Of a DNA stretch of 37,763 bases, positions 14,698-37,129 are shown in pieces (position 1 is the stretch's first letter; the number at the start of each line of letters is the position of its first letter). The stretch covers positions 1-37,763 of the forward strand of contig JAHDPO010000005.1 of NCBI GenBank assembly GCA_018434325.1, read 5' to 3'. The translations under genes were made by a program, and so were the position numbers. The stretch is from Clostridia bacterium (GTDB lineage Bacteria; Bacillota; Peptococcia; DRI-13; UBA5745). A model generated the notes under the pieces. It saw only the letters and a list, made by a program, of their open reading frames with translations. It was not told the DNA's origin and ran no database searches.

Positions 14698-15285
14698 ATG
14701 TATGAATACATTAAGCGTTTAATCGATATATTGCTTGCCGGCGTGGGCTTGATTCTTTTGAGTCCAGTTTTGCTATCGCTTTGGGTAGCGGTACGACTGA
14801 CCTCGCCGGGACCGGCGATCTTTAAGCAGAAACGGATCGGCAAGGATAAAATAATATTTCAGATGGCCAAATTCCGCAGTATGCGAATCGATACGCCTTC
14901 AGAAATGCCGACACATTTGTTGCAGAACCCTTACGCTTATATTACGCCGATTGGACGATTTCTTCGAAAGTCCAGTCTGGATGAGCTGCCTCAGTTGTGG
15001 AATATATTTAAAGGGGATATGAGCATCGTAGGTCCCCGGCCTGCTTTATGGAACCAGGACGATTTGGTTGCGGAGCGGGACCGCTGGGGAGCAAACGCCA
15101 TCCGTCCGGGGTTGACGGGTTTAGCTCAGATACGAGGCAGGGACGAGCTGCCCATCACCGAGAAGGCGGCTTACGATGGGGAGTATTGCAGGAAGATGGG
15201 GTTTTGGTTTGATTGCCAAATACTATGGCAAACGGTGAAGGTGGTGCTATTTGGAAGCGGCGTCAGGGAAGGAAGAAGGGAATAG
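14698..15285 (+). CDS. Initiating polyprenyl-phosphate sugar-1-phosphate transferase, PglC-like
   Basis: A 195-residue monotopic phosphoglycosyl transferase of the small PglC/WecP type (not the long WbaP/WcaJ type). Residues about 7-33 form the re-entrant membrane helix ending in SPGPAIFKQKRIG. The catalytic Asp-Glu pair is in SSLDELPQLWNIFKGDMSIV (D95, E96), followed by the VGPRP motif and a C-terminal RPGLTGLAQIRGR segment. It moves a sugar phosphate from a UDP-sugar to undecaprenyl phosphate, starting the glycan. The dehydratase gene ends 46 bases upstream, and a UDP-QuiNAc-type donor made by the neighbours is the natural substrate. GAGGT lies upstream of the ATG. No terminator is obvious before the convergent GT2 gene. 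Confidence 0.88.
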   Translation: MYEYIKRLIDILLAGVGLILLSPVLLSLWVAVRLTSPGPAIFKQKRIGKDKIIFQMAKFRSMRIDTPSEMPTHLLQNPYAYITPIGRFLRKSSLDELPQLWNIFKGDMSIVGPRPALWNQDDLVAERDRWGANAIRPGLTGLAQIRGRDELPITEKAAYDGEYCRKMGFWFDCQILWQTVKVVLFGSGVREGRRE

Positions 15286-20431: not shown

Positions 20432-20465
20432 TCCTTTCGAAATTGAATGGAGAAATATCGTAAAT

Positions 20466-21818
20466 ATGAAATTAAAAAAGAAGATAATTATCGATAATGT
20501 ATCGAAAATATATAAAATGTATAATTCCCCAACAGATCGCCTAAAGGAGGCGTTCAGTGTCACCCGGAGGGAATTTCATAGTGAATTCTATGCCCTCTCT
20601 AATATCAGTTTTGATGTGGGCGTGGGCGAAATTGTAGGTATAATGGGTCGGAATGGCGCCGGCAAATCGACTTTATTAAAGATTATCACCGGCATATTGA
20701 CACCGACGTTTGGCAGCGTGTCAGTAAGTGGCCGTATCAGCTCTCTTCTGGAATTAGGCGCCGGGTTCAACGTGGAGTATACCGGCCTTGAGAATATTTA
20801 TTTCTACGGGACAATAATGGGCCTATCAAGGCAGGAGATAAACCAAAAGCTAAAGGATATTATTGATTTTGCGGAGATTGGAGATTATATCCACCAGCCT
20901 GTCAAAACCTATTCCAGCGGCATGTTTGCCAGACTAGCCTTTTCGTGCGCTATTAATGTGGAGCCTGAAGTACTGATCGTTGACGAAATATTAAGCGTAG
21001 GCGATATTCGTTTTCAAGCAAAATGCTTTAACAAATTTAAGGAGTTCAAACAAAAGGGCGTCACTATCTTATATGTTGGCCATGATATATCGACCATGCG
21101 GACTTTTTGTGATAGGTGCATTTGGCTTAATAATGGCCGCATTGTAGATATGGGAGATCCCACTTACATCTCTGCTAAATATGTGGAGTTTATGTATCTT
21201 GATGAAATAGCGGATTTTACCGAATACAAAGCCTATAGCAGGGATAAGCAAGAAGGTGTGCCTGCTGATAAAATAGATATCTCTTCGTTAGTTGTCGAGA
21301 ATGGATCGATCATTCCCGAAGGTAAAAAAGCAGAAAATGCTGAGCGGATACAAAGCGGCAAACCCCTTGCCCACTGGGGGCGAAAGGTGGGATTAATTAA
21401 AAATATAAAAGTGATGGCAAATGATAAGGAGCTGGTTTCTTGCTCTCCTTTTGATGAAGTAGTAGTTTCATTTACAGTAAATAATGATAAGGAAATAGAC
21501 TATGAATATTTTTCGGCTGCGTTTTCAATTAAGAATCGTGAAGGTATTGATCTGATTGTTAAAACCACTTATGATGACGAAATAAAGCTGCGAAAGCAAG
21601 GAGAAGGACATCGATTTGAGTTTAAGTTTCAGCCTAGATTAACTAATGGGGAATATTATTTGGTAATCGCATTAGAAGACCGTAAAAATACAGCAATTTC
21701 TTATTATGAATACATAGAAGGAGCAAAATATTTTAAGGTTTTTCAGGACAAAGCCTTTTTTGGCCAGTTCTTGCCGGACATAGATATTACAGTTAAAGAG
21801 GTTAGCGGTAATGAGTGA
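20466..21818 (+). CDS. wzt: Polysaccharide export ATPase with C-terminal glycan-recognition domain
   Basis: A 450-residue ABC ATPase. Walker A GRNGAGKST (61-69), the LLELGAGFNVEYTG segment typical of Wzt/TagH, signature YSSGM (149-153), Walker B VLIVDE (169-174) and switch H206 are all intact. Residues about 300-445 form a beta-rich C-terminal domain like the carbohydrate-binding domain of E. coli O9a/O8 Wzt and Geobacillus homologues, which binds the capped non-reducing end of the chain and licenses export. A methyltransferase domain in the next gene fits such a cap. Start: ATG 20466 matches the family N-terminus; the upstream ATG at 20421 and start at 20382 lie partly inside wzm and have no good ribosome site. 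The 3' end overlaps the next gene by eight bases. Confidence 0.92.
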   Translation: MKLKKKIIIDNVSKIYKMYNSPTDRLKEAFSVTRREFHSEFYALSNISFDVGVGEIVGIMGRNGAGKSTLLKIITGILTPTFGSVSVSGRISSLLELGAGFNVEYTGLENIYFYGTIMGLSRQEINQKLKDIIDFAEIGDYIHQPVKTYSSGMFARLAFSCAINVEPEVLIVDEILSVGDIRFQAKCFNKFKEFKQKGVTILYVGHDISTMRTFCDRCIWLNNGRIVDMGDPTYISAKYVEFMYLDEIADFTEYKAYSRDKQEGVPADKIDISSLVVENGSIIPEGKKAENAERIQSGKPLAHWGRKVGLIKNIKVMANDKELVSCSPFDEVVVSFTVNNDKEIDYEYFSAAFSIKNREGIDLIVKTTYDDEIKLRKQGEGHRFEFKFQPRLTNGEYYLVIALEDRKNTAISYYEYIEGAKYFKVFQDKAFFGQFLPDIDITVKEVSGNE

Positions 21819-24800
21819 AGTTATTAATTCAAAAGAATATTGGGAAAAGAGATTTGTAGAAAAAGATTGGGAAATAAACCAGGGCAGAGAGCAGACAAGC
21901 TTCTTTTATAATCTGTTATTCAAAATGCTGCCACAATGGATTATTTCGGATATTATAAATAATAAAATGGCAATAGCGGATTTGGGTTGTGCAGAGGGGC
22001 AAGGAACTGCTATTTTATCAGAGCGGTTTGGAAACAATGTAACTGGAACTGACGCATCCCCAAGCGCAATAGAAACAGCTCGTAAATTGTATAAAGATAT
22101 TCGCTTTGAAGTGGGGGACCTTTTGCACATGTCTGAGATTTATGATGTGTGCGTTATTTCCAATGTGCTTGAGCATTTTACAGCTCCTTTTGAAATAGCA
22201 AAAAATATTGTGAAAAATTGTAGAAGCTATATGATTATAATGCTGCCTTTTGAGGAAGAACCTCTTATGAAAGAGCATATGGTTTCATTTTTTTATAATA
22301 ATATCCCAATTGCTATAAACGGAATGAATTTAGTTCACTTTTCTGAAGTTGACTGTCGTGTGATGCCGAATACACAATTTTTTGCTAAACAGATACTTCT
22401 GGTATATTCTTCGAAAATAGAACTTACCGAATCTGTATCGATTGAATCTATGTCAAATATTATACAATTATATCGCTCATCAATGAATGAATATAGAGAA
22501 CAATTAAATGAATTATCTCAACAATTAATTATCGAATCTCAAGATTCTGCAGAGATAGATAAAGTATCTATAGGACTCCGGGAAAAATTAAATATACTCA
22601 GGAACTTGATTGATGCTGGAACGAAGCTGCAGTTTTTGACAGAAACTGAGTCTTCAGTGGCGATGAAGCAAATTATTGAAGATATTCAAGCTGACTATCG
22701 TCAATCTCATAATAATTACGAGAACCTTTTGCAGTTATATGATAAAAAAAGAAATATAAGGCGTGTTATAATTGAAAAATATAATACAAGAAATTATATA
22801 ATACATCAAAAGTTAACGAAAGCTTTAGAAGAAAACAACTCATTAAAGATAGCCATTAGTGAAAAAGAATTGATGCTTATTGAAGAAGAGCTAGAGTGTA
22901 ATGAGAAAAAGAAAGCTTTATTAGGCTTAAAAAATGAATATAATAACTTGGATCAGCAATTTAGCCACTTAAACACTACACATTTAGAATTGGTAGCCAG
23001 ATTTAATAGTCTTAACGATGCGTATGGCGTGGTTGTATGTAAAAATCAAGAGATTTTATCGTCACGGACATGGCGTGCTGCTAATAAGTTGAAAACAGTA
23101 GCTAGCAAGATAGGTTTATTACATTTTCTAAAATATTTGCTTGCTGTGCGTAACTTTGGACTTGTTACTGCTACAAAAAAGGCAATTTATAAATTAAAAG
23201 CATCTCGAACTGGTGAAGTTATTCCGTATGAGAAAGAAATGAGAAAAAATAATAATATATGTTCAGTTGATGAAGAAATGACCCGAACTATTAATTTCCG
23301 CAGAGATAGTTACATGCAAGTATTAAGTAATAAAATAGATAACGATATAATAAAATCCCTGAATCAAGAATTGAGCTCGAAAAAGTACAAAGGTATTGTA
23401 ATTTATCCGCATGCCGTACATTGGGAGCCTATGCAAAGGCCACAACATTTTTTAAGGGAATTCGCCCAAAAAGGATATTTATGCTTCTTTTGTGAAACAA
23501 ATACGTGGAAGATACCCTTCACAGAAGTAGAAAAAAATCTATATGTTGTGAATGAAGAAAGCCTACTTCTGCCTTTTTTACAGGATAAGCATCCTATAGT
23601 TTTAATTACATATAGTTTGCAAATGGTTTTTTGTGAGTTCTTGCCACAAAAAACTCTTTGGTTTGATATTTTAGATAGATTAGACTTCTTCGCTTTAAGT
23701 GGGAACTTAAGTAAAGAAATCTATAATGATCTTTCGCAAACTGCGGATGTGATTTCTTATTCTGCTAAATCATTATTAGAGTTTACTAATAATAGAAAAG
23801 ATGCGGTTCTTCTACCCAATGCAGTTAAAACATCTGACTTTTGGGATGAAAATAAGCAGCAGAATACAGATGAATTTCTAAAAGAACTTGTATCCAGAAA
23901 AAAGGCTATTATAGGATATTATGGAGCAATAGAAAAATGGTTTGACCATGAAGCTATTACTTATTTAGCGGATAATTTTGACTGTGAGATTGTACTGATT
24001 GGTCATGTTGGGATAGATTCTTCCTTGCTAAAACGCAAGAATATACATTTACTTGGAGCTAAACCCTACCATGAGTTACAGTACTACTCAAGGAGTTTCA
24101 AAATTGGACTGATTCCTTTTGTGGTAAATGATCTAACAAATGCAGTCTCTCCTGTTAAGTTTTTTGAATACTGTGCATTGGGTATACCGACAGTTTCTTC
24201 AGCTATTTCCGAGATGTTGCCGTTTAAAGGAAAAGTAGTGCATCTTTATCATAATCCTTCAGAACTAGTTACGGTTTGTAAAACATTGCTTGAGCAAGAA
24301 GATCGAGAAACAATTATGCAAGAGGCTTTTCAAATTGCAGAGCAAAATAGTTGGTGGAGTAGGGTGGAACAGATAGAAAGGAGAATGTTTTCTACTACTT
24401 CAAACTTAAAGCCTTTAGCAAATACAAATCACTCAGGTATAGTTGCTGTAGAAGCAGTAACCTTCTTTAAATATGATGGTTCTTGCTATTATTCGGGTGG
24501 AGCAGAGAGATATCTAATTGACCTTCATCAAGTATGCAAAGAGATGGGTATTCAATTACGGATATATCAATATGGTGAATTTCCTTGGCTTAGGTTTTAT
24601 AACGATATAGAAGTTGTGGGTATGAATATAAAAGGAAGCGATCCCAATTTCTATAGTACGGATACAATTAAAGCAATGTCACATTATTTTAATAAAGTTG
24701 CCGGAACACAAGCTAGCCTAAGTATCTATTCGCCCTTCTTTATTTTGAGTGAAAAACCTCAAAGTAAATCAATTGGCATAAGCCATGGAATCTCATGGGA

Positions 24801-25821
24801 TGATGAATTCTGTGAACATGACGCCTCTAGTTTTTGGGGAACAAATAGTTTTAGGATAAATGCCTGTTCTTCCTGTGACTGCATGGTATCTGTTGATACC
24901 AATACTGCCAATTGGTTTCAGACTATCAGCTATAAATTAGGACGTAAAATAACGTATATCCCTAACTATGTAGATAATCTTGAATTTTGTCCTCGTGACA
25001 AGTTTGACAGTCTAAGAGAAAAAATAGTAATTACTTATCCGCGTCGGTTATACGGAGCGAGGGGACTTTACGTGGTACTGGAAGTTTTGGATGAGATATT
25101 GAGCAAGTATACTAATATCGAGTTTCATTTTGTAGGTAAAGGTTTTGATAATGATACCAAGCATGTTGAAAAGAAAATCACCAAATGGAAAGGCCGTGTC
25201 CAATGGTATTCTTGCCCCCCGGAGAAAATGCACGAAGTGTATAAAAATAGTGATATTAGCTTAATCCCGACAATGTATAGTGAAGGGACAAGTTTATCAT
25301 GCTTGGAGGCCCTTTCGAGTGGAAATGCAGTTATTGCAACTCGAATTGGAGGACTAACAGATATCATTCTTAACGGTTATAATGGCTTGTTGATTGAGCC
25401 TAATGCCGAAGCTCTTAAAGAGGCGATTTTTACGCTGCTTGATAATTCGGAATTGATGATTCAACTTAAAAGGAAAGCAGTTACTACTGCACAAGCCTTT
25501 TCTAAAGAGAAGTGGAAAGAAAAATGGAAAAAGGAAATTAAGAAATTGTTGCCGGATATATCCAGAGCATTGCCTTATCAAAAGGCAAAAATATGCTGCA
25601 TAACGATATATGAGATGGCTTTAAGCAATGTAATATTAGTGTCTGTAGTGAAAAAATTACTTACAGAGAATTGGACTGTATTTATTTGTTCAAAAATGAA
25701 GTTTACAAGTTTTGAGCGGTTACAATTTATTTCGCTAGAAGAGGATATCTATTTTGAACCATTGCTTGTTTTAGGAGATCAGGATGGGTCATTAGAGCGG
25801 TTCTATAAAAGCGATGTTTAA
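21811..25821 (+). CDS. Multidomain methyltransferase / coiled-coil / double glycosyltransferase (WsaE-like)
   Basis: A 1336-residue protein. Residues about 1-200: SAM-dependent methyltransferase, with motif I IADLGCAEGQG (55-65), acidic GTDAS (79-83) and VLEHF (119-123). About 210-405: long heptad-like helical region, ending in SSRTWRAANKL (417-427), a linker often seen in glycan-polymerase fusions. About 525-860: GT-B domain paralogous to the protein at 17260 (QRPQHFL, IGYYGAIEKWF, SPVKFFEYC). About 875-1250: GT4 domain with Gly-rich YYSGGAERYL (893-902) and an EX7E motif (E1158, E1166). The last about 85 residues are unassigned. Known parallels: WsaE of Geobacillus (methyltransferase plus two rhamnosyltransferases) and WbdD of E. 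coli O9a (methyl cap, coiled-coil ruler). Likely role: extend the chain, methylate its end, and hand it to Wzt. No kinase domain is seen. Confidence 0.85.
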   Translation: MSEVINSKEYWEKRFVEKDWEINQGREQTSFFYNLLFKMLPQWIISDIINNKMAIADLGCAEGQGTAILSERFGNNVTGTDASPSAIETARKLYKDIRFEVGDLLHMSEIYDVCVISNVLEHFTAPFEIAKNIVKNCRSYMIIMLPFEEEPLMKEHMVSFFYNNIPIAINGMNLVHFSEVDCRVMPNTQFFAKQILLVYSSKIELTESVSIESMSNIIQLYRSSMNEYREQLNELSQQLIIESQDSAEIDKVSIGLREKLNILRNLIDAGTKLQFLTETESSVAMKQIIEDIQADYRQSHNNYENLLQLYDKKRNIRRVIIEKYNTRNYIIHQKLTKALEENNSLKIAISEKELMLIEEELECNEKKKALLGLKNEYNNLDQQFSHLNTTHLELVARFNSLNDAYGVVVCKNQEILSSRTWRAANKLKTVASKIGLLHFLKYLLAVRNFGLVTATKKAIYKLKASRTGEVIPYEKEMRKNNNICSVDEEMTRTINFRRDSYMQVLSNKIDNDIIKSLNQELSSKKYKGIVIYPHAVHWEPMQRPQHFLREFAQKGYLCFFCETNTWKIPFTEVEKNLYVVNEESLLLPFLQDKHPIVLITYSLQMVFCEFLPQKTLWFDILDRLDFFALSGNLSKEIYNDLSQTADVISYSAKSLLEFTNNRKDAVLLPNAVKTSDFWDENKQQNTDEFLKELVSRKKAIIGYYGAIEKWFDHEAITYLADNFDCEIVLIGHVGIDSSLLKRKNIHLLGAKPYHELQYYSRSFKIGLIPFVVNDLTNAVSPVKFFEYCALGIPTVSSAISEMLPFKGKVVHLYHNPSELVTVCKTLLEQEDRETIMQEAFQIAEQNSWWSRVEQIERRMFSTTSNLKPLANTNHSGIVAVEAVTFFKYDGSCYYSGGAERYLIDLHQVCKEMGIQLRIYQYGEFPWLRFYNDIEVVGMNIKGSDPNFYSTDTIKAMSHYFNKVAGTQASLSIYSPFFILSEKPQSKSIGISHGISWDDEFCEHDASSFWGTNSFRINACSSCDCMVSVDTNTANWFQTISYKLGRKITYIPNYVDNLEFCPRDKFDSLREKIVITYPRRLYGARGLYVVLEVLDEILSKYTNIEFHFVGKGFDNDTKHVEKKITKWKGRVQWYSCPPEKMHEVYKNSDISLIPTMYSEGTSLSCLEALSSGNAVIATRIGGLTDIILNGYNGLLIEPNAEALKEAIFTLLDNSELMIQLKRKAVTTAQAFSKEKWKEKWKKEIKKLLPDISRALPYQKAKICCITIYEMALSNVILVSVVKKLLTENWTVFICSKMKFTSFERLQFISLEEDIYFEPLLVLGDQDGSLERFYKSDV

Positions 25822-25914
25822 ATGCTTGAGATTCTGCTATTATAATAAGTATTACGGTATAACTAAAATACTCAGAAAAATAATGTAATTATAACTTTTG
25901 TGAGGCGACACTAT

Positions 25915-27486
25915 ATGGATAATTGTAATAGAAGAGAAGAAGATAGATTTCCTGTCAAAATACGTTTCGTTTCACTATCGAGGTATCAAAAAATATGTTT
26001 TTGCATATATATTGTATTGATTGTCTGTATATTCATGCAACTTTTTTGTAATCCTTACTATGGAATTGCTGATAATGGAGACTTCAGAAGGTTATCTTTG
26101 AAGGTCGGTATTGACCGACCTCTTGGATATTGGTATCCTGAAAAATATGACTTGCATTTTTGGAATTACTTTTTGAATGATTATATATATGTGCAGCCAC
26201 ATGCTCTCTATTATACTTCATCTAGTGAGTACTTAGTGGAATTATCAAAAGTTATTAACAATCTTACTGTGATTCGACCGGGAATATATGATATAAGGAG
26301 TTTTGGATTTGTATTATTTTTAATTTATTCAGTGGCGTTATTCATCCTTTACTATTTGTATTCTAAAATTAAGTTTCATAGATGGCTATATATTTTACCA
26401 TTACTTAGTTTTGTCTTTTTTGCTGATGCTTCTATATTAATGTATTTTAATTCTTTTTTCTCTGAGGCAACTCATTTAGTTTTTTTGTTTTTATTTTTTG
26501 TTTTGGCATGGCTATGGATACGACAGAAGGAAGTGAGGGGGCTTAAAAACAAAATAGCTATACTAATAATGGAATTAATAGCATGCTTTTTTGCATGTGC
26601 AGCAAAATTACAGTATATTGTTTTAGTAATTGTATGTTTATTGGTATTCCTCTGGCAGCTACTAGAATTATATAAACAATATAAAGTCTATTCGAAATCC
26701 CAATTAGTTAAAGTTAGTTATTATTGCTTTTCGATAATATGCCTAGCTATTATAATAATTCCTAATTATATGGTGGCACAAAAGAATATGACAGGAGGAA
26801 CGGCGGGCTACATATCAATAGTTAATGTAATTCAAGGTGAAATATTGGATTATGCTGAAAATCCAGAAGATCTAATGCGTGCAAGCGGATTTGAAGAGAA
26901 CATTATCCCAGTGATTATGAAAAGTGTAGGAATTCCGGCAGGTTTGGCTGTGACAACTGATGGTAATACTGAACATATGGAGCGTGTTCGAGGAACTCTA
27001 TATAACAGCAAAACAGTACTGAAGATGCTAGCAATGGAACCCCATATTATCTGGGATATGTTCTATAATAAATCTAAAGGATTATTTATAGATTCAGAGT
27101 ACGGGACCAAAATGATTGAATATGGTGATGATAAGAGATCACAAGAAATTGGATTAAAGCTTTTCAAAACGGTAAAAGATAAACTTACTAGCATGACAAC
27201 CATGATACAATTTTTTGTTTTTTTGTTTGTCATTGTTGGTTCATCTATTTTTTATATTTATAAAATTCTAGATGAAAAGCATTTATTGGATTTTACACAT
27301 TGGCATTTATCTTTGACGCTTAATATATATTGTTTGTCTGAATATGTGGTTTGTTTACTAAGTGAAGCTGCTATGGTAGGAGAAGGAAAGTATTTATTTA
27401 TAGTTAATCAATTGTTTTATATTAGTTTTTTTATTTTCCTTATTCATGCTTTTACGTATTTCCATGGTTTTTTTAATAAAAAATGA
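25915..27486 (+). CDS. Polytopic membrane glycosyltransferase, GT-C type, possibly WsfD-like
   Basis: A 523-residue protein with about ten hydrophobic helices. After the first helix comes a periplasmic-side NPYYGIADNGDFRRL (about 46-60); an acidic motif in the first external loop is the GT-C signature, and the form NGDF is, to my memory, typical of the WsfD group of glycan hexose transferases found in S-layer glycosylation loci. A second soluble loop (about 295-415) separates the helix sets. It would use a polyprenyl-phosphate sugar to decorate the glycan outside the membrane. ATG 25915 is favoured over GTG 25900, because TGAGG is then nine bases upstream. It is separated from the fusion gene by 93 bases and is very AT-rich. 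Substrate is unknown. Confidence 0.6.
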   Translation: MDNCNRREEDRFPVKIRFVSLSRYQKICFCIYIVLIVCIFMQLFCNPYYGIADNGDFRRLSLKVGIDRPLGYWYPEKYDLHFWNYFLNDYIYVQPHALYYTSSSEYLVELSKVINNLTVIRPGIYDIRSFGFVLFLIYSVALFILYYLYSKIKFHRWLYILPLLSFVFFADASILMYFNSFFSEATHLVFLFLFFVLAWLWIRQKEVRGLKNKIAILIMELIACFFACAAKLQYIVLVIVCLLVFLWQLLELYKQYKVYSKSQLVKVSYYCFSIICLAIIIIPNYMVAQKNMTGGTAGYISIVNVIQGEILDYAENPEDLMRASGFEENIIPVIMKSVGIPAGLAVTTDGNTEHMERVRGTLYNSKTVLKMLAMEPHIIWDMFYNKSKGLFIDSEYGTKMIEYGDDKRSQEIGLKLFKTVKDKLTSMTTMIQFFVFLFVIVGSSIFYIYKILDEKHLLDFTHWHLSLTLNIYCLSEYVVCLLSEAAMVGEGKYLFIVNQLFYISFFIFLIHAFTYFHGFFNKK

Positions 27487-27563: not shown

Positions 27564-29117
27564 ATGAATTTTAATATCTTAGAAAATAAAAATGTAATAA
27601 ACATTGAGAAATTTTTTTGGTTTGGATTTGGAATTCTGGGAATGTATTGCTTTGTGGTTTTCCCATTGGATTATTATTTTGATAGCTTTGGGAATTTTAC
27701 TCTAATTTTTTTCTTAACATATATTTTTTTTACATTACTTGCTATAAGTGCAAATCATTTTTTGAATTTACATAAAAAGATTTTATTGGTGCTAATTCCA
27801 GTATTTATATTTATTTCTGCATTATTTGTCCGGCTTTTGGGGGTTATAGCAATCGGACAAAATACCATACAAATATCTGATTTTGGGAATGCGGTTTATC
27901 AGGCCCAACAAGCTATTCCTATCTATTCTAAATTTTATTCATTATATTCAGGCTGGGCACTATACCCGTTATGTTTAAAAATTATTATGCGCTTGTTGAA
28001 TGGTGGCATCTATACAATTTTAATTTTTAATGCTGTTTTGGGTGCTTTAAGCGCAGTAATAGTTTATTTCATTGTCTATTGCTTTGATATGCACAGACCT
28101 AATACAGCAATTATTGCAGGTATATTATATGGGTTGTGGCCTACTGAGATTTTCTATATAATACTATGCACGCCAGAATATCTACATATTTTTACAATAC
28201 TAATGGGGTTTTTGCTTCTTGAAATAGCATTATTCATACCTATGCATTCGATATCCAGGAAACTTAGCCTCATTATATTTTCTGGAATTTTTATTAGTTT
28301 TTCTGGTTTCATGAAAGCAACTAGTAGTATAATGCTAATAGCTATAGCGATTACAGTAATTATATATATTTTAGAAGTATGCTTATATCAAGTGAAAGCA
28401 TCAGTTTGCATTAATAAGCCTCTGATTATAATTAAGGGGATTTCAAAATTAGGCCCATATGTGAAAAAATGCGTGGTATATCTTTTTATTTTCTTAATTG
28501 TATTTTTCATATGTAATTCTATTTTTTATGCTCTTTCGGATTGGTATGTGGGTTATGAAGTAAATCGAAAACCAATAATACGTTATTTATATGGGGGATT
28601 ACATCATATCTCGAAAGGCGTTTGGGTATCAGAAATACATAACCGTTATGAACAAATATGGATAGTGAATGACTACGATTTTGAAATGGCTAACAAATTA
28701 CTTTTAGAGGAGCTATGTAATGACATTCAAGCAAATCATTTAACTTTGGCCATGTTTTATAATAAAGCGAAATATGCTTTTTCTGATTTAAGTTATATGT
28801 CTTTTGTTCTTTCGACTGTTAATTCGGACAATATTATACTTGCAAAACAATTGATTGAGCAGGCAATGCCTTTTATGCAGATATATTATATGCTAGTGGG
28901 CTTGTTTGTTGTAATTGCAGCCTTAGATCTTACAAAAAAACGCCGGAAAGGATTTCTTTTTTCTGCACTATATATAACAGGATTTATTTGTTTAATGTTG
29001 CTTAGCGAAAATCAACCGAGATATAAAACTGTTATTTATCCATTCTTATGCATATTGGCAGCCCATGGAGTAACTGTTATTTATAATAAAGTTAAAAAAA
29101 TTAAAGAGGATGCGTAA
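27564..29117 (+). CDS. Polytopic membrane glycosyltransferase, GT-C/GT39-like
   Basis: A 517-residue protein with about 11 hydrophobic helices. ISDFGNAV (D106) follows the second or third helix, in the position of the catalytic Asp in the first external loop of GT-C enzymes (ArnT, PMT family). A stretch near 185-205 (LYGLWPTEIFYIILCTPEYL) is typical of GT39-like mannosyl- or arabinosyltransferase-fold proteins. About 120 residues near the C-terminus are external. It probably transfers a sugar from a polyprenyl-phosphate donor. It differs clearly from the preceding GT-C protein, so these are not recent duplicates. The gene is very AT-rich, and its stop lies one base before the favoured start of the sulfotransferase-like gene. 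Confidence 0.65.
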   Translation: MNFNILENKNVINIEKFFWFGFGILGMYCFVVFPLDYYFDSFGNFTLIFFLTYIFFTLLAISANHFLNLHKKILLVLIPVFIFISALFVRLLGVIAIGQNTIQISDFGNAVYQAQQAIPIYSKFYSLYSGWALYPLCLKIIMRLLNGGIYTILIFNAVLGALSAVIVYFIVYCFDMHRPNTAIIAGILYGLWPTEIFYIILCTPEYLHIFTILMGFLLLEIALFIPMHSISRKLSLIIFSGIFISFSGFMKATSSIMLIAIAITVIIYILEVCLYQVKASVCINKPLIIIKGISKLGPYVKKCVVYLFIFLIVFFICNSIFYALSDWYVGYEVNRKPIIRYLYGGLHHISKGVWVSEIHNRYEQIWIVNDYDFEMANKLLLEELCNDIQANHLTLAMFYNKAKYAFSDLSYMSFVLSTVNSDNIILAKQLIEQAMPFMQIYYMLVGLFVVIAALDLTKKRRKGFLFSALYITGFICLMLLSENQPRYKTVIYPFLCILAAHGVTVIYNKVKKIKEDA

Positions 29118-29118: not shown

Positions 29119-30681
29119 ATGATAAATTCTTTGAAAAAACTATGGTTTCCGATTTTTACTATATGTATGCTTATAGGAATATATTTTATTTTACTAATGA
29201 ATATAAAACCTTTGTCTATCCCCAAAGAAGGTGATATGGGATTTGTTGAAGCAAACACTCAAAAGACATTGAATTTAAAAATTAATGGTCAATTTTTTGA
29301 TATTTTCACCGCCCAACCTAATCAATATTTTGATATTAATAAAATCACAACAGAGATTCCGTCAATAATTGAGTTTGATGGGGAGGAATGGAATCAATAT
29401 AATGTTTTTTTTCAAGATGTCCCAGTTAACACGAAACAGATAGAATTTTTAGTGCCTGAGATTTCAGACGCATATAAGCTGGTTTTACGCTTAAATCCTA
29501 AAAATGGTATGGAGCCCGTAACTTATTATTTTAATACGCGCCATTCTGAACTAGTACAAATGGAGATTATGGCAACAAACTTCAATCAAAGTGGATTTTA
29601 TTATTTTGCTCCGATCAATACTCCCAATAGTTTTGCAATTAAGATGGATTCTTTAGGAAATATAATAACGCAAATTCATTCTACTACATATATATGTGAT
29701 TTTAAACCAACCAAAATAAATGATAAAATTTATTATTCCTATCTAGAAGTATATAATCAGGATAAAGTAGGTAGAGACGGATGCAAAGCGGTGGTGATGA
29801 ATGGGAATTATGAAATAATAGACTTAGTTGAAACTACTATTCCAATTGGTGCAAAAGAAGAGGCCCCGCTCGATTTACATGATTTTATAATTATTGATGA
29901 TAAACATTATTTAATTGGTTGTTATTATCCTAAAATTGTTAATAATATTCCTGCAGAATTGGAACACAATCAGTTTGGTACTGAAATCACTTCAAGTCTG
30001 ATCCAAGAAATTAAAAATGACGAGCTTATTTTTCAATGGGATAGTGCAGATTATCCCGAATTATATGCAATGAGTGTGGAGTGGAACGATTATTACAATA
30101 ATAGAACAAGATGGAGTGATTACATTCACTGGAACTCCTTTATCCAAGACTCTAGAGATGGCTCATTAGTTTGCTCGTTTAGAAATATTGATGCGATACT
30201 AAAAATTGAACGACCTTCAGGAAATATTAAGTGGGTATTAGGTGGAAAAAATGATATGTTTGGTTTAACGGCAGAGAAGAAATTTAGACGTCAGCATTTT
30301 GCTCAAATACAAGCAGATGGTTCTATTACACTTTTTGATAATGCTGCAGATATGCCTGTTAGCGAATATTTAAAGAAAAAGGCAGCTGGGATAAAAATGG
30401 AAGAGCCCATTTCTCGAATTCAGAGGTTTTGGCTTAATGAAGAGAATTTCACAATTGTCAATTATGAGGAATATCGTGTAGGAAAACAATATAGTCCTGC
30501 TATGGGTTCTGCACAACTCCTTGATGATTCAAGTGATCGTTACATAATTGGATGGGGGCTTAGAGACGATGTCTTTCCAATGTTTTCCGAGGTAAGCTTT
30601 TCTGATTCTGTTATTTACTTTAAGTTGTTTGCTAAAAAAGCAGGTATCCAAAATTATCGTGTATATAAATATTCTTACTAA
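29119..30681 (+). CDS. Membrane-anchored arylsulfotransferase (ASST)-family protein
   Basis: A 520-residue protein with an N-terminal signal anchor (residues about 8-28) and an external beta-propeller-like domain. The catalytic set of ASST enzymes can be followed: H254 in LDLHDFIII, H337 in DYIHWNSF, R355 in CSFRNIDAI, and H393 in RRQHFAQI. The spacing H337 to R355 (18) equals that of H356 to R374 in E. coli ASST, whose H436 is the sulfated intermediate. GNIKWVLGGKNDMF is also typical of the family. ASSTs move sulfate from phenolic sulfates, independent of PAPS, in the periplasm. Here, among glycan genes, an external glycan-modifying role is inferred; the donor is unknown. ATG 29119 is preferred to ATG 29110, since GAGG (29106-29109) touches the earlier one. 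Confidence 0.78.
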   Translation: MINSLKKLWFPIFTICMLIGIYFILLMNIKPLSIPKEGDMGFVEANTQKTLNLKINGQFFDIFTAQPNQYFDINKITTEIPSIIEFDGEEWNQYNVFFQDVPVNTKQIEFLVPEISDAYKLVLRLNPKNGMEPVTYYFNTRHSELVQMEIMATNFNQSGFYYFAPINTPNSFAIKMDSLGNIITQIHSTTYICDFKPTKINDKIYYSYLEVYNQDKVGRDGCKAVVMNGNYEIIDLVETTIPIGAKEEAPLDLHDFIIIDDKHYLIGCYYPKIVNNIPAELEHNQFGTEITSSLIQEIKNDELIFQWDSADYPELYAMSVEWNDYYNNRTRWSDYIHWNSFIQDSRDGSLVCSFRNIDAILKIERPSGNIKWVLGGKNDMFGLTAEKKFRRQHFAQIQADGSITLFDNAADMPVSEYLKKKAAGIKMEEPISRIQRFWLNEENFTIVNYEEYRVGKQYSPAMGSAQLLDDSSDRYIIGWGLRDDVFPMFSEVSFSDSVIYFKLFAKKAGIQNYRVYKYSY

Positions 30682-30713: not shown

Positions 30714-31661
30714 ATGAAAACAATAAGCATAGTCATTCCTTGCTATAATGAAGAAAAAAGCATAGTTGAAATGTACAAACGCTTGCTGGAAATATTTCAG
30801 GGGCCTCTTTGCCGATATGATTATGAAATCATCTTTGTAGATGACTATTCACCGGATGGTACTTGGCATGAAATAGAAAAGGTGTGCGCATCAGATAGTA
30901 AAGTTAAAGGAGTACATAATGCTAAAAATTTTGGCTTTACCCGTAACGTATTTGCAACCCTGACTTATGGCAGGGGTGATGCCACCTTTATGCTATTTGG
31001 TGACCTACAAGATCCTCCCGAAGTTTTATTAGAGTTTGTTGAGCATTGGGAAGAAGGGTATAAAGTAGTTATTGGTCAAAAGAAGTATTCAGACGAAAAT
31101 AAGCTATTGTTTGCTTTACGGACGATTTACTACAAAATTATTGGAGCCTTTGCCGATACTAAACAGTTACCGCATTTTAATGGATTTGGCTTATATGACA
31201 GGATGTTTATTGATGTTATACGCCAGCTGAAAGATTCACAGCCTTATTTAAAAGGTGTTGTTGCAGAGTTTGCTATGAATCAATGTATTGTACAATATGA
31301 TCAAAAGATAAGCAAACGTGGAAAATCAGGCTTTAACTTTATGAAATATTATGATGTGGCTATGATTGGTATTACCTCATATACGAAAACCTTGATGCGC
31401 ATAGCAACCTTTGTAGGCGCTTTTTTGGGCATTCTGTGCGTCCTGTTTTCTATTTTTGTTTTTATTAATAAATTACTTAACTGGACAACCTATCCTGCCG
31501 GTACAGCTTCTATTATGATAGGTATTTTCTTTTTGGGTGCAGTACAATTATTTTTTATTGGAATTTTAGGCGAGTATATTTTAGGAATCAATACAAGGAC
31601 AATGCAGCGTCCTCTTGTAATTGTAGATAAAAAGCTCAATTTTGAAGATAAGGTGGATTAG
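30714..31661 (+). CDS. Polyprenyl-phosphate glycosyltransferase, GtrB/dolichol-phosphate mannosyltransferase-like GT2
   Basis: A 315-residue GT2 enzyme: ISIVIPCYNEE, FVDDYSPDGT (41-50), GDLQDPPE (96-103, the QDPPE metal-site form specific to this subgroup), then two C-terminal membrane helices (about 228-252 and 264-288) ending GILGEYILGIN. It makes an undecaprenyl-phosphate-linked sugar on the cytoplasmic face; a GtrA-type flippase (36734) turns it over and a GT-C transferase (25915 or 27564) uses it outside. All three component types are in this run. The closest named relatives are GtrB and YfdH. The ribosome site is weak (GGTGA). The next gene follows after two bases. Confidence 0.88.
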   Translation: MKTISIVIPCYNEEKSIVEMYKRLLEIFQGPLCRYDYEIIFVDDYSPDGTWHEIEKVCASDSKVKGVHNAKNFGFTRNVFATLTYGRGDATFMLFGDLQDPPEVLLEFVEHWEEGYKVVIGQKKYSDENKLLFALRTIYYKIIGAFADTKQLPHFNGFGLYDRMFIDVIRQLKDSQPYLKGVVAEFAMNQCIVQYDQKISKRGKSGFNFMKYYDVAMIGITSYTKTLMRIATFVGAFLGILCVLFSIFVFINKLLNWTTYPAGTASIMIGIFFLGAVQLFFIGILGEYILGINTRTMQRPLVIVDKKLNFEDKVD

Positions 31662-31663: not shown

Positions 31664-33016
31664 ATGATCCAAAAGCTTGTAGAATCATGGGCTGCAACTG
31701 AGGGACAGGTATATTCCACTGCTGAGTTACTTGAGTGGATTAGAGGACGCAACGCAGAAATCCAAGTTAATATTCGAAAGATCCCCCCTGAAGAGGATGG
31801 GGTATGGCGATATATTGAGACTGAAGGGATTATTGCAAACCCTCAACGCAGTTTTTTTACTATTAGCGGTTTTGAATATGCGGGTAATCAACAGCCAATT
31901 TTAATTCAGGATGAAATCGGCTATTTAGGGATTCTCTGTAAAGAAATTAATGGTGTAATTCATCTTCTAATGCAAGCAAAAATTGAGCCGGGCAATGTAA
32001 ATAAAATTCAGATATCTCCTACCATACAGGCGACAAAAAGCAATTTTACCCAAAAACACGGTGGAAAACGCCCCGCCTATTTAGAGTATTTTCTGGAGGC
32101 GGACAAGCATGAAATTATCGTGGATCAGATGCAATCGGAGCAGGCTTCACGCTTTATAGGAAAGCGTAACCGTAATATAATAATCGTTGTGGATGCTGAT
32201 GTGGAATTAGAGGTATTGTCAAGTCATCGCTGGATGACCTTGGGACAGATTAAGCAGCTCATGAAGCATGATAATTTAGTGAATATGGATACCCGTACAG
32301 TTATCTCCTGCATACCCTTCCACTTGGCCAATCCTGAAATAGTGGTATCGTTTTTTCAGGATCAAGCATTATATCGTTCAATCTATTGGGGTGATGGTAT
32401 CAACCATTTACCGGAAATATATAGTTATATCAATAACGACAGAATGTTTAATGATGAAAAGCCTCACAAGATTCCCCTCCATAGTATGCAAGATTGGGAA
32501 TGGCAAAATGGCGAATTTGTTTGTAAAAAAGGATACCATTTTAAAATTGTTTTTTGCGATATTTTAATTGAAGGACGTGAAGTAAAGCATTGGACGCAGC
32601 CGCTTTTTGAAGCGGTAGGCATGGCAACTTTCGGTTTACTTTGTTGCGAAATAGATGGGATTTTGCGTTTTGTGGTAAAATATAAAAAAGAAATTGGCAA
32701 TTTTGATGGCCCTGAACTGGGGCCTACTCTTCAGTTGGAAGCAGACGAAGAACCGATAGATGAAATAGAAAGTTTTTTTCTTTCCTACTATCAGAAGAAT
32801 CGAGACGTCCGATACAATGTCGTTTTATCTGAAGAGGGAGGGCGATTCTATCATGAGCAGAACCGTAACATTATTTTACGCGTGCCGACAGGAGAACTTC
32901 CTCCACTACCTAAAGGGTATTTCATGGTTGACTATAAAACATTAAGCACCTTGGTGCAAATCAATAATACATTGAATATCCAACTACGTAACTTAATGGC
33001 CCTTTTGGAGGTGTGA
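31664..33016 (+). CDS. NDP-hexose 2,3-dehydratase
   Basis: A 450-residue protein built of two related halves, as in EvaA/TylX3-type NDP-hexose 2,3-dehydratases. Half one (about 1-205) has FFTISGFEYAG, GYLGILCKEINGVIHLLMQA and QISPTIQATKSNF; half two (about 225-445) has FKIVFCDILIEGREVKHWTQ, FGLLCCEIDGILRFVVKYK and LGPTLQLE. In antibiotic pathways these enzymes remove water from dTDP-4-keto-6-deoxyglucose to give a 3,4-diketo-2,6-dideoxy sugar, which must be reduced at once by a 3-ketoreductase; the next gene encodes a fitting one. Its presence indicates that the glycan contains a 2,6-dideoxyhexose or a derivative. AAGGTGG lies about seven bases before the ATG. It is unusual outside secondary-metabolite clusters. 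Confidence 0.88.
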   Translation: MIQKLVESWAATEGQVYSTAELLEWIRGRNAEIQVNIRKIPPEEDGVWRYIETEGIIANPQRSFFTISGFEYAGNQQPILIQDEIGYLGILCKEINGVIHLLMQAKIEPGNVNKIQISPTIQATKSNFTQKHGGKRPAYLEYFLEADKHEIIVDQMQSEQASRFIGKRNRNIIIVVDADVELEVLSSHRWMTLGQIKQLMKHDNLVNMDTRTVISCIPFHLANPEIVVSFFQDQALYRSIYWGDGINHLPEIYSYINNDRMFNDEKPHKIPLHSMQDWEWQNGEFVCKKGYHFKIVFCDILIEGREVKHWTQPLFEAVGMATFGLLCCEIDGILRFVVKYKKEIGNFDGPELGPTLQLEADEEPIDEIESFFLSYYQKNRDVRYNVVLSEEGGRFYHEQNRNIILRVPTGELPPLPKGYFMVDYKTLSTLVQINNTLNIQLRNLMALLEV

Positions 33017-33017
33017 A

Positions 33018-34055
33018 ATGAAGAAGATTAAGATCGGCATTCTGTGCCCGTCGGAAATTGCCTTTAGGCGCTTTATGCCTGCGTTGCAAAAACAAGCTGA
33101 TTTTGAATTCGTAGGTATTGGCTATGCAAATGAGGAAGAGTGGTTTGGAACTGCTTCCGATAAAAATGATCGTTCAGTATTGCTAAAAGAAAGAGAAAAA
33201 GCAGAGAGATTCGTCGTTACTTACGGCGGACGCCTTTTTGAAAGCTATGAACAGATATTGACAGCTTCGGATGTTAATGCGGTTTACTTGCCGTTACCCC
33301 CTGCCCTTCATTTTAAATGGGGTAAAGCAGTATTAAAAAATGGTAAGCACCTGCTTATGGAGAAACCTTTTACAATTTCCTCTCGAGATACGAAAGAGCT
33401 CATTTCAATAGCGCAAGATAAAGGCTTAGCCGTACACGAAAACTATATGTTTCAATATCATAGCCAGTTGGATTGGATTCAGCAGGCAGTTGCAGAGGGC
33501 CAAATTGGTGAGCTGAGATTAGTGCGTATAGCCTTTGGCTTTCCCTTCCGGGGAGCCTTTGATTTCCGCTATAATAAATCATTAGGTGGTGGTGCTTTAC
33601 TGGATTGCGGTGGCTACACAGTCAAGTTGGCTTCAATGCTATTAGGAGAAAGCGCAAAAATAGCTACCTCACATTTAAATAATAAGAAAGGATTTGAGGT
33701 TGATATCTATGGCAGTGCGACTATGATAAATGATGAAGGTCTAACAGCACAGCTTTCTTTTGGTATGGATAATAGTTATAAATGCGAGTTAGAGATTTGG
33801 GGAAGTAGTGGAACATTGTATACTAATCGAATTTTAACTGCTCCGGATGGATTTGAACCGACCATCATAATAAAAAATGCTGACAGCGAAAAGGAATACA
33901 TCTTGCCGTCAGATGATAGCTTTTCTAAGTCTCTGCAAACATTTTCTCAATGTGTAGTAGATGCCCATATTGCAAGAAATAACATGAAAGCAATTCTAAA
34001 ACAAGCAGAAATAATAGATTCTTTTGCAAGGGGGATTAGAAATGAAGATAACTGA
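33018..34055 (+). CDS. Gfo/Idh/MocA-family NDP-sugar 3-ketoreductase
   Basis: A 345-residue oxidoreductase. The N-terminal Rossmann domain starts KIGILCPSEIAFRRFMPAL, and the family motif MEKPFT holds the catalytic Lys (K116). The C-terminal domain has SLGGGALLDCGGYTVKLA (Tyr200 is a candidate proton donor). It resembles KijD10/TylC1-type C-3 ketoreductases, which act right after a 2,3-dehydratase, and it is directly preceded by one (one base apart, GGAGGTG site). It would reduce the 3-keto group with NAD(P)H; the stereochemistry at C3 cannot be read from sequence. It overlaps rmlC by 14 bases. Confidence 0.85.
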   Translation: MKKIKIGILCPSEIAFRRFMPALQKQADFEFVGIGYANEEEWFGTASDKNDRSVLLKEREKAERFVVTYGGRLFESYEQILTASDVNAVYLPLPPALHFKWGKAVLKNGKHLLMEKPFTISSRDTKELISIAQDKGLAVHENYMFQYHSQLDWIQQAVAEGQIGELRLVRIAFGFPFRGAFDFRYNKSLGGGALLDCGGYTVKLASMLLGESAKIATSHLNNKKGFEVDIYGSATMINDEGLTAQLSFGMDNSYKCELEIWGSSGTLYTNRILTAPDGFEPTIIIKNADSEKEYILPSDDSFSKSLQTFSQCVVDAHIARNNMKAILKQAEIIDSFARGIRNEDN

Positions 34056-34608
34056 ATTAAGCTTGCCCGAAGTGAAAGTCCTTGAGCCCAGATATTTTGA
34101 GGACTTTAGAGGCTACTATTGTGAGACCTATTCTAAACGAACAATGGAGGCAAATAACATTTTTTTGACCTTTGTGCAAGATAACCATAGTTTAAGTCTT
34201 AAGACGGGAACAATTCGAGCAATTCATTTCCAAAATAATCCAAAGGCCCAAACAAAATTGGTTCGCTGCACAAGGGGTAGAGTTATGGACTTTGCTGTAG
34301 ATTTAAGAAAAGGATCACCAACCTTTAAATGCTGGGCTGGGATTGAACTTTCCGAAGAAAATAGAAGGCAAATACTAATTCCTCAGGGATTTGGGCATGG
34401 TTTTATAACACTTGAGGATAATTGTGAAGTTTTATATAAAGTTGATGAGTTATATTATCCTGAATTAGATAGGGCTATCGCTTGGAATGATCCCGAAATT
34501 GGTATACCATGGGGTATCAGTAACCCTGTTGTTTCGGAAAAGGATCGTAAAGCACCGCGTCTATGTGATAGTGACGTTAATTTTAGAATAGACGGATATT
34601 GCTTATGA
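34042..34608 (+). CDS. rmlC: dTDP-4-keto-6-deoxyhexose 3,5- (or 5-) epimerase, RmlC family
   Basis: A 188-residue cupin enzyme with the RmlC set: H62 in IRAIHFQNN, K72 in AQTKLVRC, Y132 in EVLYKVDE, and the closing AIAWNDPEIGIPW. H62, K72 and Y132 correspond to H63, K73 and Y133 of Salmonella RmlC. The usual RG.HYQ is RAIHFQ here. In a rhamnose pathway it epimerises C3 and C5; after a 2,3-dehydratase and 3-ketoreductase it would act mainly on C5 to give an L-configured 2,6-dideoxy sugar, as EvaD-type enzymes do. GGGGG about seven bases before ATG 34042 decides the start; a TTG at 34024 is less likely. Its stop overlaps the next ATG (ATGA). Confidence 0.88.
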   Translation: MKITELSLPEVKVLEPRYFEDFRGYYCETYSKRTMEANNIFLTFVQDNHSLSLKTGTIRAIHFQNNPKAQTKLVRCTRGRVMDFAVDLRKGSPTFKCWAGIELSEENRRQILIPQGFGHGFITLEDNCEVLYKVDELYYPELDRAIAWNDPEIGIPWGISNPVVSEKDRKAPRLCDSDVNFRIDGYCL

Positions 34609-35522
34609 GAAAAGCAATTATTACTGGTGCAACAGGGTTTATCGGCAGTGCATTGACTAAACGCTTATTAAGTGATGGTATTACTGTTTATGGGGTTGGT
34701 TTAAATAAAGATAAGTTAGAGCAGATGAAACAGTATGGTGATTTTATTCCTGTAGTTGCTAATTTTGATTTCTATGTCCAGTTGCCACAGCTAATTAATG
34801 ATTCTGATATTGATGTATGTTATCATTTCGCTTGGGATGGAGTTTTTGGGAATTCATTTAAAGATTATGATCTGCAATTAAAAAATGCAAAATATGCTTG
34901 TGATTCACTTATGGCTGCGGTTAAGCTTAAATGCAATAAATTTGTCTTGGCCGGAACTAGTAATCAATACACAATTGCTACAAGACTAAAAGAAAATTTT
35001 GATGAATCAAGGTATACTTGTATTTACGGAGCGGCTAAAGTAGCGGCAGATATGATGTGTAAAACTTTGGCCCACTACCATGATATTAACTATAATTCTG
35101 GACTTGTCTGCATGGCGTATGGTGAAGGAAACCGCTCCAAAATGCTCCCTAATATAGTGATCAATCAATTCAATAAAGGGATTAGGCCTAAGCTGGTGGA
35201 AGCAGAAAACGAATATGATCTAATTTATATTAAGGATATTGTCGATGCTTTTATAGCCATTGCTGAAAAAGGAATCGATCAAAAGAGCTATTATGTAGGG
35301 CATCGAGACAAAAGGACATTCGGTGAAATTATTGGGTCAATTAGAGATGTTCTCGCTCCCGATATGGAGCTGATTTTTGGTGAATACAAAGAAACAAGCG
35401 ATATGGATTATAGCTTAATAGACCGGGATGCTTTATTTAGGGATACCGGATTTGAGTGCAAGGCTGATTTTCGTGAGAGCATACTAAAAACTGCTGAATG
35501 GGTCAAAACTCTTGACCTTTAG
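34605..35522 (+). CDS. SDR NAD-dependent epimerase/4-ketoreductase (RmlD/Gal-epimerase-like)
   Basis: A 305-residue extended SDR with TGATGFIGS near the N-terminus, CYHFAWDGVFG, LAGTSNQYT, catalytic YGAAK, and AYGEGNR before the substrate domain. The last glycan-sugar step still missing from the dideoxyhexose module is reduction of C4, and this is the only unassigned reductase in the module, so a 4-ketoreductase (or a C4-directed epimerase) is the best inference. The motif set is not diagnostic. The ATG at 34605 lies in ATGA, overlapping the rmlC stop; the TTG at 34599 would add two residues. The gene ends 40 bases before the mutase homologue. Confidence 0.7.
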   Translation: MRKAIITGATGFIGSALTKRLLSDGITVYGVGLNKDKLEQMKQYGDFIPVVANFDFYVQLPQLINDSDIDVCYHFAWDGVFGNSFKDYDLQLKNAKYACDSLMAAVKLKCNKFVLAGTSNQYTIATRLKENFDESRYTCIYGAAKVAADMMCKTLAHYHDINYNSGLVCMAYGEGNRSKMLPNIVINQFNKGIRPKLVEAENEYDLIYIKDIVDAFIAIAEKGIDQKSYYVGHRDKRTFGEIIGSIRDVLAPDMELIFGEYKETSDMDYSLIDRDALFRDTGFECKADFRESILKTAEWVKTLDL

Positions 35523-35562
35523 CGGTTATATTCAGGCAACAAATAATGATTGAGGTAAAGAA

Positions 35563-36744
35563 ATGCAAGAAGTAATCGTAGTTGGGAGCGGCTTTTCTGG
35601 CAGTATTTTAGCTAGAAAAATAGCTGAAGAGCTCAATCAAAAGGTATTGGTAGTAGAAAAAAGAGACCATATAGGCGGCAATGCTTATGACTTCCTGGAT
35701 GAACGAGGCATACTTATTCAAAAATATGGTCCCCATTTCTTGAATACCAATAAATATTTTATTATCCGTTTTTTACGTCAGTATGGTGAATTGTTCGAGC
35801 ATAATACTAAATTGCTCAGCTATATTGACGGTAGGCATGTACGGCTACCTTTTAACTTCCAAACAGTTCAGCAGTTAATTGGTGCTGAAAAGGCTGAGAC
35901 TGCGCTGGCTAAGCTAAGAGCGGCTTTTGCCGGAAGGGACCGGGTGCCTATCTTGGAATTGATTGACCATAATGATGGAGATATTCGGGACTATGGCAAT
36001 CTGCTGTTTGAAAAAGCCTATAAAACTTACACGGCTAAGCAGTGGGGGATAGGCGTCGATCAGATAGACAAATATGTTTTAGAGCGCGTACCTATGGCCA
36101 TGAACTATGACGAGCGTTATTTAAATAAAGATTTTCAGTATCTACCTGTCCACGGCTTTACCTCATTATTCGCAAAAATGCTGGACCATCCTAATGTTGA
36201 ACTGCAGATCAATACAGATGCCCTGAAACATATCCAGTTTGATAAGGAGAATCAGATCATTACTTATGATGGAGTTCCAATCAAATGCTTGATTTATACC
36301 GGTGCCGTCGATGAATTGTTCGGTTTAGAATTCGGGGCCCTGCCGTACCGTTCTTTGGATATTCGCTATGAATACAGCGATAAAAATAGCCTATTGCCCT
36401 GTGAAATTGTTTCCTATCCCCAGGCTGAAGGATACACTCGCTCTACCGAATATCGTAAAATTATGTTTGACGATTCTAAGGTCCAAGGGAGTGTTGTTGC
36501 TACAGAATATCCTTTGGAGTATGATCGCAACGACCCGAAAGCCGATATTCCCTATTACCCGGTAAATACGGCTGCCAGCAATCAACTGTACCAAAAATAT
36601 TTACAGGAGGCGCAAAAATACAGGAATATCTTTTTATGCGGCCGTTTAGCGGAGTTTAAATATTACAATATGGATATATGTATTGAACATGCCCTGGAAT
36701 ATTTCAATAATATAAAAGAGTATCTGGATAGCTATGGTTCATGA
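35563..36744 (+). CDS. glf: UDP-galactopyranose mutase homologue with altered active-site residues
   Basis: A 393-residue FAD protein aligning along its length with Glf: GSGFSGSILAR and VEKRDHIGGNAYD (FAD), YTAKQWG with W161, R175 (equal to R174 of Klebsiella UGM), YTRSTEY with R293 (equal to R280), and CGRL with R361. Two usually conserved positions differ. The family motif GPHIFHTN is GPHFLNTN, so the His equal to H63 is N61; and FKYYNMD has N369 where Klebsiella has D351, although Y367 (equal to Y349) is kept. Glf interconverts pyranose and furanose forms of UDP-Gal. The changes, next to a dideoxysugar module, raise the possibility of a different NDP-sugar (compare dTDP-fucopyranose mutase Fcf2). 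GAGGT precedes the ATG by seven bases. It overlaps gtrA. Confidence 0.8.
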   Translation: MQEVIVVGSGFSGSILARKIAEELNQKVLVVEKRDHIGGNAYDFLDERGILIQKYGPHFLNTNKYFIIRFLRQYGELFEHNTKLLSYIDGRHVRLPFNFQTVQQLIGAEKAETALAKLRAAFAGRDRVPILELIDHNDGDIRDYGNLLFEKAYKTYTAKQWGIGVDQIDKYVLERVPMAMNYDERYLNKDFQYLPVHGFTSLFAKMLDHPNVELQINTDALKHIQFDKENQIITYDGVPIKCLIYTGAVDELFGLEFGALPYRSLDIRYEYSDKNSLLPCEIVSYPQAEGYTRSTEYRKIMFDDSKVQGSVVATEYPLEYDRNDPKADIPYYPVNTAASNQLYQKYLQEAQKYRNIFLCGRLAEFKYYNMDICIEHALEYFNNIKEYLDSYGS

Positions 36745-37129
36745 AATAATTGAACTCTTGAAAAAGCATAGGGAGACAATAGCCTATTTGTTTTTTGGTA
36801 GCTTGACGGTTTTGATCAATATCATCTTATTTACTTTATTCGATTTATTATTGGGTGAGCTTACAGCTAACACCATAGCCTTTCTCTTGTCTGTCCAGTT
36901 TGCTTATATGACAAATACGAAATTTGTCTTTTGCACCCCTTATACCAGGCAAAATTTTTTGCAATTTTGGGCCATGAGGATCGGTACGATTTTTATCGAC
37001 AACGGTGGTATGTGGATACTGTTGGCTCTGGGAGGCAATAAATTTATAGCAAAATGCCTGGTTAATATTATAATTATTGTGCTCAATTATATTTTTAGTA
37101 AGTTTTATATTTTTCGGAGGAAGGTCTAA
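36734..37129 (+). CDS. gtrA: GtrA-family membrane protein (putative polyprenyl-phosphate-sugar flippase)
   Basis: A 131-residue protein with four membrane helices and GtrA features: YLFFGSLTVLINIILFTLFD, FLLSVQFAYMTNTKFVF (usually NF.l...FvF) and a C-terminal VLNYIFSKFYIFR. GtrA proteins are thought to flip undecaprenyl-phosphate-linked single sugars for side-chain addition. Partners in this window are the GtrB-like enzyme (30714) and the GT-C proteins (25915, 27564), though these are not adjacent. The start lies inside glf (11 bases overlap), implying translational coupling. Confidence 0.88.
   Translation: MVHEIIELLKKHRETIAYLFFGSLTVLINIILFTLFDLLLGELTANTIAFLLSVQFAYMTNTKFVFCTPYTRQNFLQFWAMRIGTIFIDNGGMWILLALGGNKFIAKCLVNIIIIVLNYIFSKFYIFRRKV

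Follow-up and report, generated by a model that had tools for sequence, protein, structure and literature searches.

An arylsulfotransferase-family enzyme encoded in a glycan export operon of a Clostridia bacterium and its possible role in glycan sulfation

Gene content of the glycan locus

The window, which is the whole stretch of DNA that was analyzed, is 37,763 nucleotides long. It contains a gene for an arylsulfotransferase (ASST) family protein among numerous genes that appear to be connected to the synthesis and export of a glycan. The features identified are as follows.

7217..9820, + strand: Wzy_C-type polytopic protein, possible O-oligosaccharyltransferase (PF04932 9.9e-7, just below cut-off; 12 hydrophobic segments)
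14698..15285, + strand: polyprenyl-phosphate sugar-1-P transferase, chain initiator (PF02397)
19619..20431, + strand: Wzm-type glycan exporter permease (PF01061; NF050109 1.1e-14, below its cut-off)
20382..21818, + strand: Wzt ATPase with C-terminal glycan-binding domain (PF00005, PF14524)
21811..25821, + strand: WsaE-like methyltransferase with two GT4 domains, 1336 aa (PF13649, PF13524, PF00534)
25900..27486, + strand: WsfD-like extracytoplasmic hexose transferase (NCBIfam NF051875, 135.7 bits, cut-off 80)
27564..29117, + strand: polytopic membrane protein, 517 aa, approximately 13 hydrophobic segments (hydropathy, gaps)
29103..29109, + strand: likely ribosome-binding site AAAGAGG for the ATG at 29119 (sequence)
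29119..30681, + strand: ASST-family sulfotransferase, 520 aa (Pfam, PDB sequence match, conservation, AF2 model, fold search, scans for membrane segments and cysteines)
30714..31661, + strand: GtrB/PgfS-like GT2, polyprenyl-phosphate sugar synthase with two C-terminal membrane segments (PF00535 7.5e-27; NF047588 1.4e-55, below its cut-off)
31664..36744, + strand: sugar-nucleotide genes for NDP-hexose 2,3-dehydratase, GFO oxidoreductase, RmlC, SDR, and UDP-galactopyranose mutase (Glf) (Pfam and NCBIfam)
36734..37129, + strand: GtrA-like flippase candidate (PF04138 6e-16)

The gene order is initiator, UDP-GlcNAc 2-epimerase (listed between the initiator transferase and Wzm), Wzm, Wzt, methyltransferase-GT-GT, WsfD-like protein, 13-segment membrane protein, and ASST. 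On the 3' side of ASST lie the GtrB-like GT2, 2,3-dehydratase, oxidoreductase, RmlC, SDR, Glf, and GtrA. The ASST gene starts 1 base after the stop of the polytopic-protein gene, and 32 bases separate it from the GtrB-like gene. Third-position GC is 0.250 for ASST, 0.251 for the WsfD-like gene, and 0.249 for the polytopic neighbor. The 1-base gap and the matched codon composition suggest that ASST shares a history with its operon neighbors. GC falls from 45-50% to 28-39% from approximately 16.5 kb (16500-37763), where the glycan region begins. The left contig end (11-807) carries an IS66-type element.

The polytopic protein (27564..29117) is probably a GT-C glycosyltransferase. Neither Pfam nor NCBIfam profiles assign it to a family, and searches of 45 further genomes of the class returned no match. 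The protein encoded by 21811-25821 matches the architecture of WsaE, a trifunctional protein of S-layer glycan synthesis in Geobacillus. The genes for NDP-hexose 2,3-dehydratase, GFO oxidoreductase, RmlC, and SDR are adjacent (31664-35522) and suggest a 2,6-dideoxyhexose pathway. Pathways of this kind are typical of antibiotics, and for an exported glycan one seems unusual. The stretch 2724-7013 encodes two proteins of secreted type that carry Cu_amine_oxidN1 domains; one also has a Big_1 domain and the other has leucine-rich repeats. No S-layer protein, RmlA, or RmlB was identified in the window with Pfam and NCBIfam profiles.

Start, topology, and cysteines of the ASST gene

The mechanically called open reading frame is 29110-30681, and residue numbers counted from 29110 are 3 higher than those counted from 29119. 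The motif AAAGAGG ends approximately 9 bases upstream of the ATG at 29119, a spacing that fits this start, but it directly abuts the ATG at 29110. Thus, 29119 appears to be preferable as the start of the gene.

Residues 7-35 form the single membrane segment of the protein, near its N terminus, and lysines stand at the N-terminal end of this segment. This pattern is most likely that of an outward-facing signal anchor, which would leave the remainder of the protein outside, and it is consistent with the original prediction of an outward-facing domain with a signal anchor. Cysteines are found at positions 16, 193, 222, 268, and 352. The cysteine scan found no pair near H393 and profile searches identified no DsbL/DsbI-like gene in the window, in agreement with the original prediction, which saw no dedicated DsbL/I encoded nearby. 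A Dsb partner is not expected for this enzyme. Assignment to the enterobacterial DsbL/DsbI-dependent AssT subgroup does not fit these two observations.

Family assignment and active site

Both Pfam families expected from the original prediction matched the protein above their curated cut-offs, PF05935 with E=5.1e-17 (62.4 bits, cut-off 24.2) and PF14269 with E=1.4e-14 (54.6 bits, cut-off 27), and the active-site residues aligned. Counted from 29119, H254, H337, N339, R355, Q392, and H393 are each found at these positions. The active site of E. coli ASST consists of H252, H356, N358, R374, H436, and T501 (PMC13426309). H254, H337, N339, R355, and H393 of the window ASST align with the first five of these. 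The order of H254, H337, R355, and H393, which had been proposed to be that of the catalytic residues, was confirmed by column-by-column pairing with canonical ASSTs. The 18-residue spacing noted between histidine and arginine is likewise shared with E. coli ASST (H337-R355 and H356-R374). In phmmer searches of the PDB, Cpz4 was the best sequence match (2.4e-15); the match to E. coli ASST was weak, yet its active-site residues were in register. When the window ASST was compared with canonical ASSTs of the phylum by hhalign, all five residues were paired (probability 98.9, E=3e-17).

Across 81 aligned homologs, the five active-site residues and Q392 are invariant (100%), at only 20-27% identity to the window ASST. 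Many other residues that are kept among these relatives differ in the window ASST.

Structure and fold

The AF2 model has a mean pLDDT of 73, with the propeller region mostly confident. The beta-propeller catalytic domain covers approximately residues 145-520 and carries H254, H337, N339, R355, and H393. Alignment to the crystallized enzymes supports the convergence of these residues in the propeller center, as their predicted arrangement. Residues 32-152 have low pLDDT, and a low-confidence beta-rich region lies at approximately residues 45-140. For the N-terminal region, a single-sequence model was also beta-rich, at a pLDDT of 50 that is too weak to use. In the fold search with the AF2 model, Cpz4 (Z 39.3) and E. 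coli ASST (Z 28.7) scored well above the other propellers (Z of at most 20.9). Foldseek gave E values of 1e-20 for Cpz4 and 1e-11 for E. coli ASST. A non-enzymatic propeller as the best match, which would have spoken against the original prediction, was thus ruled out, as the top folds are both enzymes.

It is very probable that the protein belongs to the ASST family and is catalytically competent. A propeller that has lost sulfotransfer and instead binds glycans or aryl groups at the surface, or acts as a sulfatase, is very unlikely. The changed residues, together with the lone long branch of 1.7 substitutions per site described below, would fit a protein that has lost its activity, but all of the catalytic residues are kept at 20-27% identity, which is unexpected after loss of function, and the fold match to ASSTs exceeds that to other propellers.

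Homologs and phylogenetic position

A scan of named genomes identified 80 relatives of the window ASST, mostly in Actinomycetota and one in Neobacillus. A single-protein search at E<=1e-8 of genomes from the class (46) and the phylum (398) returned nothing but the window's own gene. In 113 genomes of another class no ASST relatives were found, in a search that had no positive control, and 399 genomes of a further class contained five (the Bacilli loci). Viral contigs and phage records contained no relatives. No close homolog of the window ASST is present in the sample.

In the tree, the window ASST forms a single long branch that is placed beside the canonical forms. Cpz4 is the best match in both sequence and fold; the tree instead puts the branch near canonical ASSTs. 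The window ASST may represent a deeply branching line that is nearest to Cpz4. The canonical ASSTs of the phylum, with approximately 630 aa, are only remotely related to the window ASST. Two further observations concern other PF05935 proteins. Those of approximately 490 aa in Bacillota (L114-L133, L149-L153) form a separate clade, with no phmmer match to the window ASST and with Met aligned at the first-histidine column. One locus (L148, 7071-12062) contains a 1664-aa open frame with two tandem PF05935 matches.

ASST gene neighborhoods elsewhere

Homologs of the window's glycan transferases or exporter permease were found near ASST genes at 0 of 82 named-record loci (some of them short), in 0 of 40 regions that surround further PF05935 genes in the phylum, and at 0/5 Bacilli loci; as this comparison relied on similarity to proteins of the window itself, divergent transferases could have escaped it. 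Apart from Wzt-like matches, most likely to ABC ATPases of a generic kind, these loci gave a single weak match, to the dehydratase-like protein at 12828 (L076). The placement of an ASST in a glycan locus is so far unique among the approximately 125 loci that were examined, and no conserved synteny stands behind the association. For this sample (82 + 40 + 5 loci, none in a glycan locus), a frequent placement of ASSTs in such loci was rejected. In Rubrobacter-type loci (L032, 7884-13005; L045, L048, L053, L066, L076), sulfatase-like genes lie beside the ASST homolog and could hint at a sulfate-handling pair. A general link between ASST and sulfatase genes was rejected, as it was confined to a few loci of the Rubrobacteraceae type.

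Since no context is conserved, synteny offers no argument for a role in glycan sulfation, and the neighborhood could be accidental. The enzyme could then be an ordinary phenol-sulfating ASST that shuttles sulfate among small phenolics outside the cell, in detoxification or sulfate exchange, and that is in the operon by chance as mobile cargo. Phenols are what most characterized ASSTs act on, and the natural acceptors of these enzymes are unknown (PMC13426309), the glycan context is missing at all of the other loci, and the region is a low-GC island. However, the 1-base gap and the codon composition suggest a history shared with the neighbors, and Cpz4, the closest relative with a solved structure, has a preference for sugar hydroxyls. 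An ordinary phenol-sulfating enzyme appears rather unlikely.

Sulfur supply in the genome

ASSTs use aryl (phenolic) sulfates as donors rather than PAPS. The genome possesses one PF05935 gene. No APS kinase match was found in this genome, which is 98.3% complete, and the same search found the enzyme in 11/14 controls. PF01747 ATP sulfurylase and PF13469 sulfotransferase were also absent, with CysD/CysN-type ATP sulfurylase and PF00685 lying outside this search. Because APS kinase was not found, PAPS-dependent sulfation and a PAPS-fed donor route like that of Cpz8 appear unlikely here, and the donor would be external to the cell. No pathway for making aryl sulfates was identified.

Proposed role in sulfation of the exported glycan

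The membrane-anchored ASST may sulfate the cell-surface glycan that is built by this operon, and the chances that this glycan is its main acceptor are judged to be about even. Support comes from the preference of Cpz4 for sugar hydroxyls, the 1-base spacing to the operon neighbor, and the missing APS kinase. The N-in/C-out anchor predicted from the sequence would keep the propeller outside the membrane. An environmental phenolic sulfate would dock there and H393 would take the sulfuryl group, held by H254, H337, N339, and R355. For the ping-pong mechanism on H393 the model is E. coli ASST; that the residues are present and conserved was seen for the window ASST. The sulfo-enzyme could then pass the group to a sugar hydroxyl of the exported chain, or to a side sugar from the WsfD/GtrB/GtrA-type module. 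As PAPS is apparently not made, ASST would be the cell's route to sulfate esters.

Tyrosines of surface proteins are another possible acceptor, for example in an S-layer protein that also carries its glycans on tyrosine. ASSTs classically accept tyrosine and tyrosine peptides (PMC13426309), and titles cited in PMC2943079 indicate that S-layer glycans of some Bacillota are tyrosine-linked. The Wzy_C-type protein is also of the kind predicted to move glycans onto S-layer protein. With no S-layer protein identified in the window and no sequence feature that points to a protein acceptor, sulfation of tyrosine is improbable.

For glycan sulfation, the fuller proposal is an extracellular, PAPS-free sulfation of a Gram-positive-type surface glycan, fed by environmental aryl sulfates and coupled to WsfD/GtrB decoration. 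This proposal is tentative, at somewhat less than even chances. The original prediction knew of no description of such glycan sulfation by an ASST, and literature searches agree; in the open-licence literature, they turned up no report of an ASST that sulfates a surface glycan of bacteria. Cpz4 and the in vitro sulfation of GlcNAc by other ASSTs are partial precedents.

The identity of the enzyme is well supported and glycan sulfation is plausible. The enzyme family is clear, and the sugar target would follow from the operon position and from Cpz4. Natural acceptors are unknown for nearly all bacterial ASSTs (PMC13426309). The operon context proposes one, a specific exported glycan, and this is directly testable. 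If the proposal is true, phenol sulfates harvested by bacteria allow PAPS-free sulfation of their surface polysaccharides, a route overlooked by searches for PAPS sulfotransferases. The window ASST would also be a candidate enzyme for cheap glycan sulfation.

Comparison with known systems

The glycan locus resembles the slg S-layer glycan clusters of Geobacillus stearothermophilus and Paenibacillus alvei. It shares with them the initiator, Wzm/Wzt, the methyltransferase-GT-GT fusion, side-sugar addition of the WsfD/WsfH type, low GC, and overlapping genes. In slg clusters, WsfH and WsfD add side glucose via a separate lipid-linked route (PMC2943079). An slg-type layout comprises a WbaP-type initiator, Wzm/Wzt, central GTs, sugar-nucleotide genes downstream, and a Wzy_C oligosaccharyltransferase; most of these elements are present, with the Wzy_C match below cut-off and RmlA and RmlB not identified. 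Unlike the slg clusters, the window has a 2,3-dehydratase sugar pathway and no S-layer protein was seen. In the passages of PMC2943079 that a text search found, no sulfate substituent is mentioned on slg S-layer glycans.

The clostridial ASSTs (DhAST, HefAST, and that of Eubacterium A-44) belong to the same superfamily as the window ASST, and some of them transfer sulfate to GlcNAc, glucose, or glycosides in vitro; sugars were sulfated by DhAST and HefAST (PMC13426309). The canonical forms of the phylum are remote from the window ASST and lie outside glycan loci in the sample. The AssT of E. coli CFT073 (3elq/3ets) shares the propeller fold and all of H252/H356/N358/R374/H436 are matched. It differs in its identity of 16-17%; the window ASST is membrane-anchored, without the equivalent disulfide and without DsbL/DsbI nearby. 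A counterpart of the N-terminal beta-sandwich of the E. coli enzyme, if present, would lie in the low-pLDDT region 32-152.

The closest solved fold is that of Cpz4 (Streptomyces sp., PDB 9kf4/9kf6), a PAPS-independent enzyme of caprazamycin biosynthesis, with 338 residues aligned at 2.4 A. Identity is approximately 25%. The acceptor of Cpz4 is a small molecule in an antibiotic cluster, whereas the window ASST is in a glycan export locus. The donor of Cpz4 is a pyrone sulfate from the PAPS-dependent Cpz8 (PMC6731281), and this PAPS-fed route differs from the situation here, where no APS kinase was found. The two enzymes share the catalytic set and are similar in length, and Cpz4 acts on a sugar hydroxyl, with a preference for the sugar hydroxyls of glycosides (PMC13426309).
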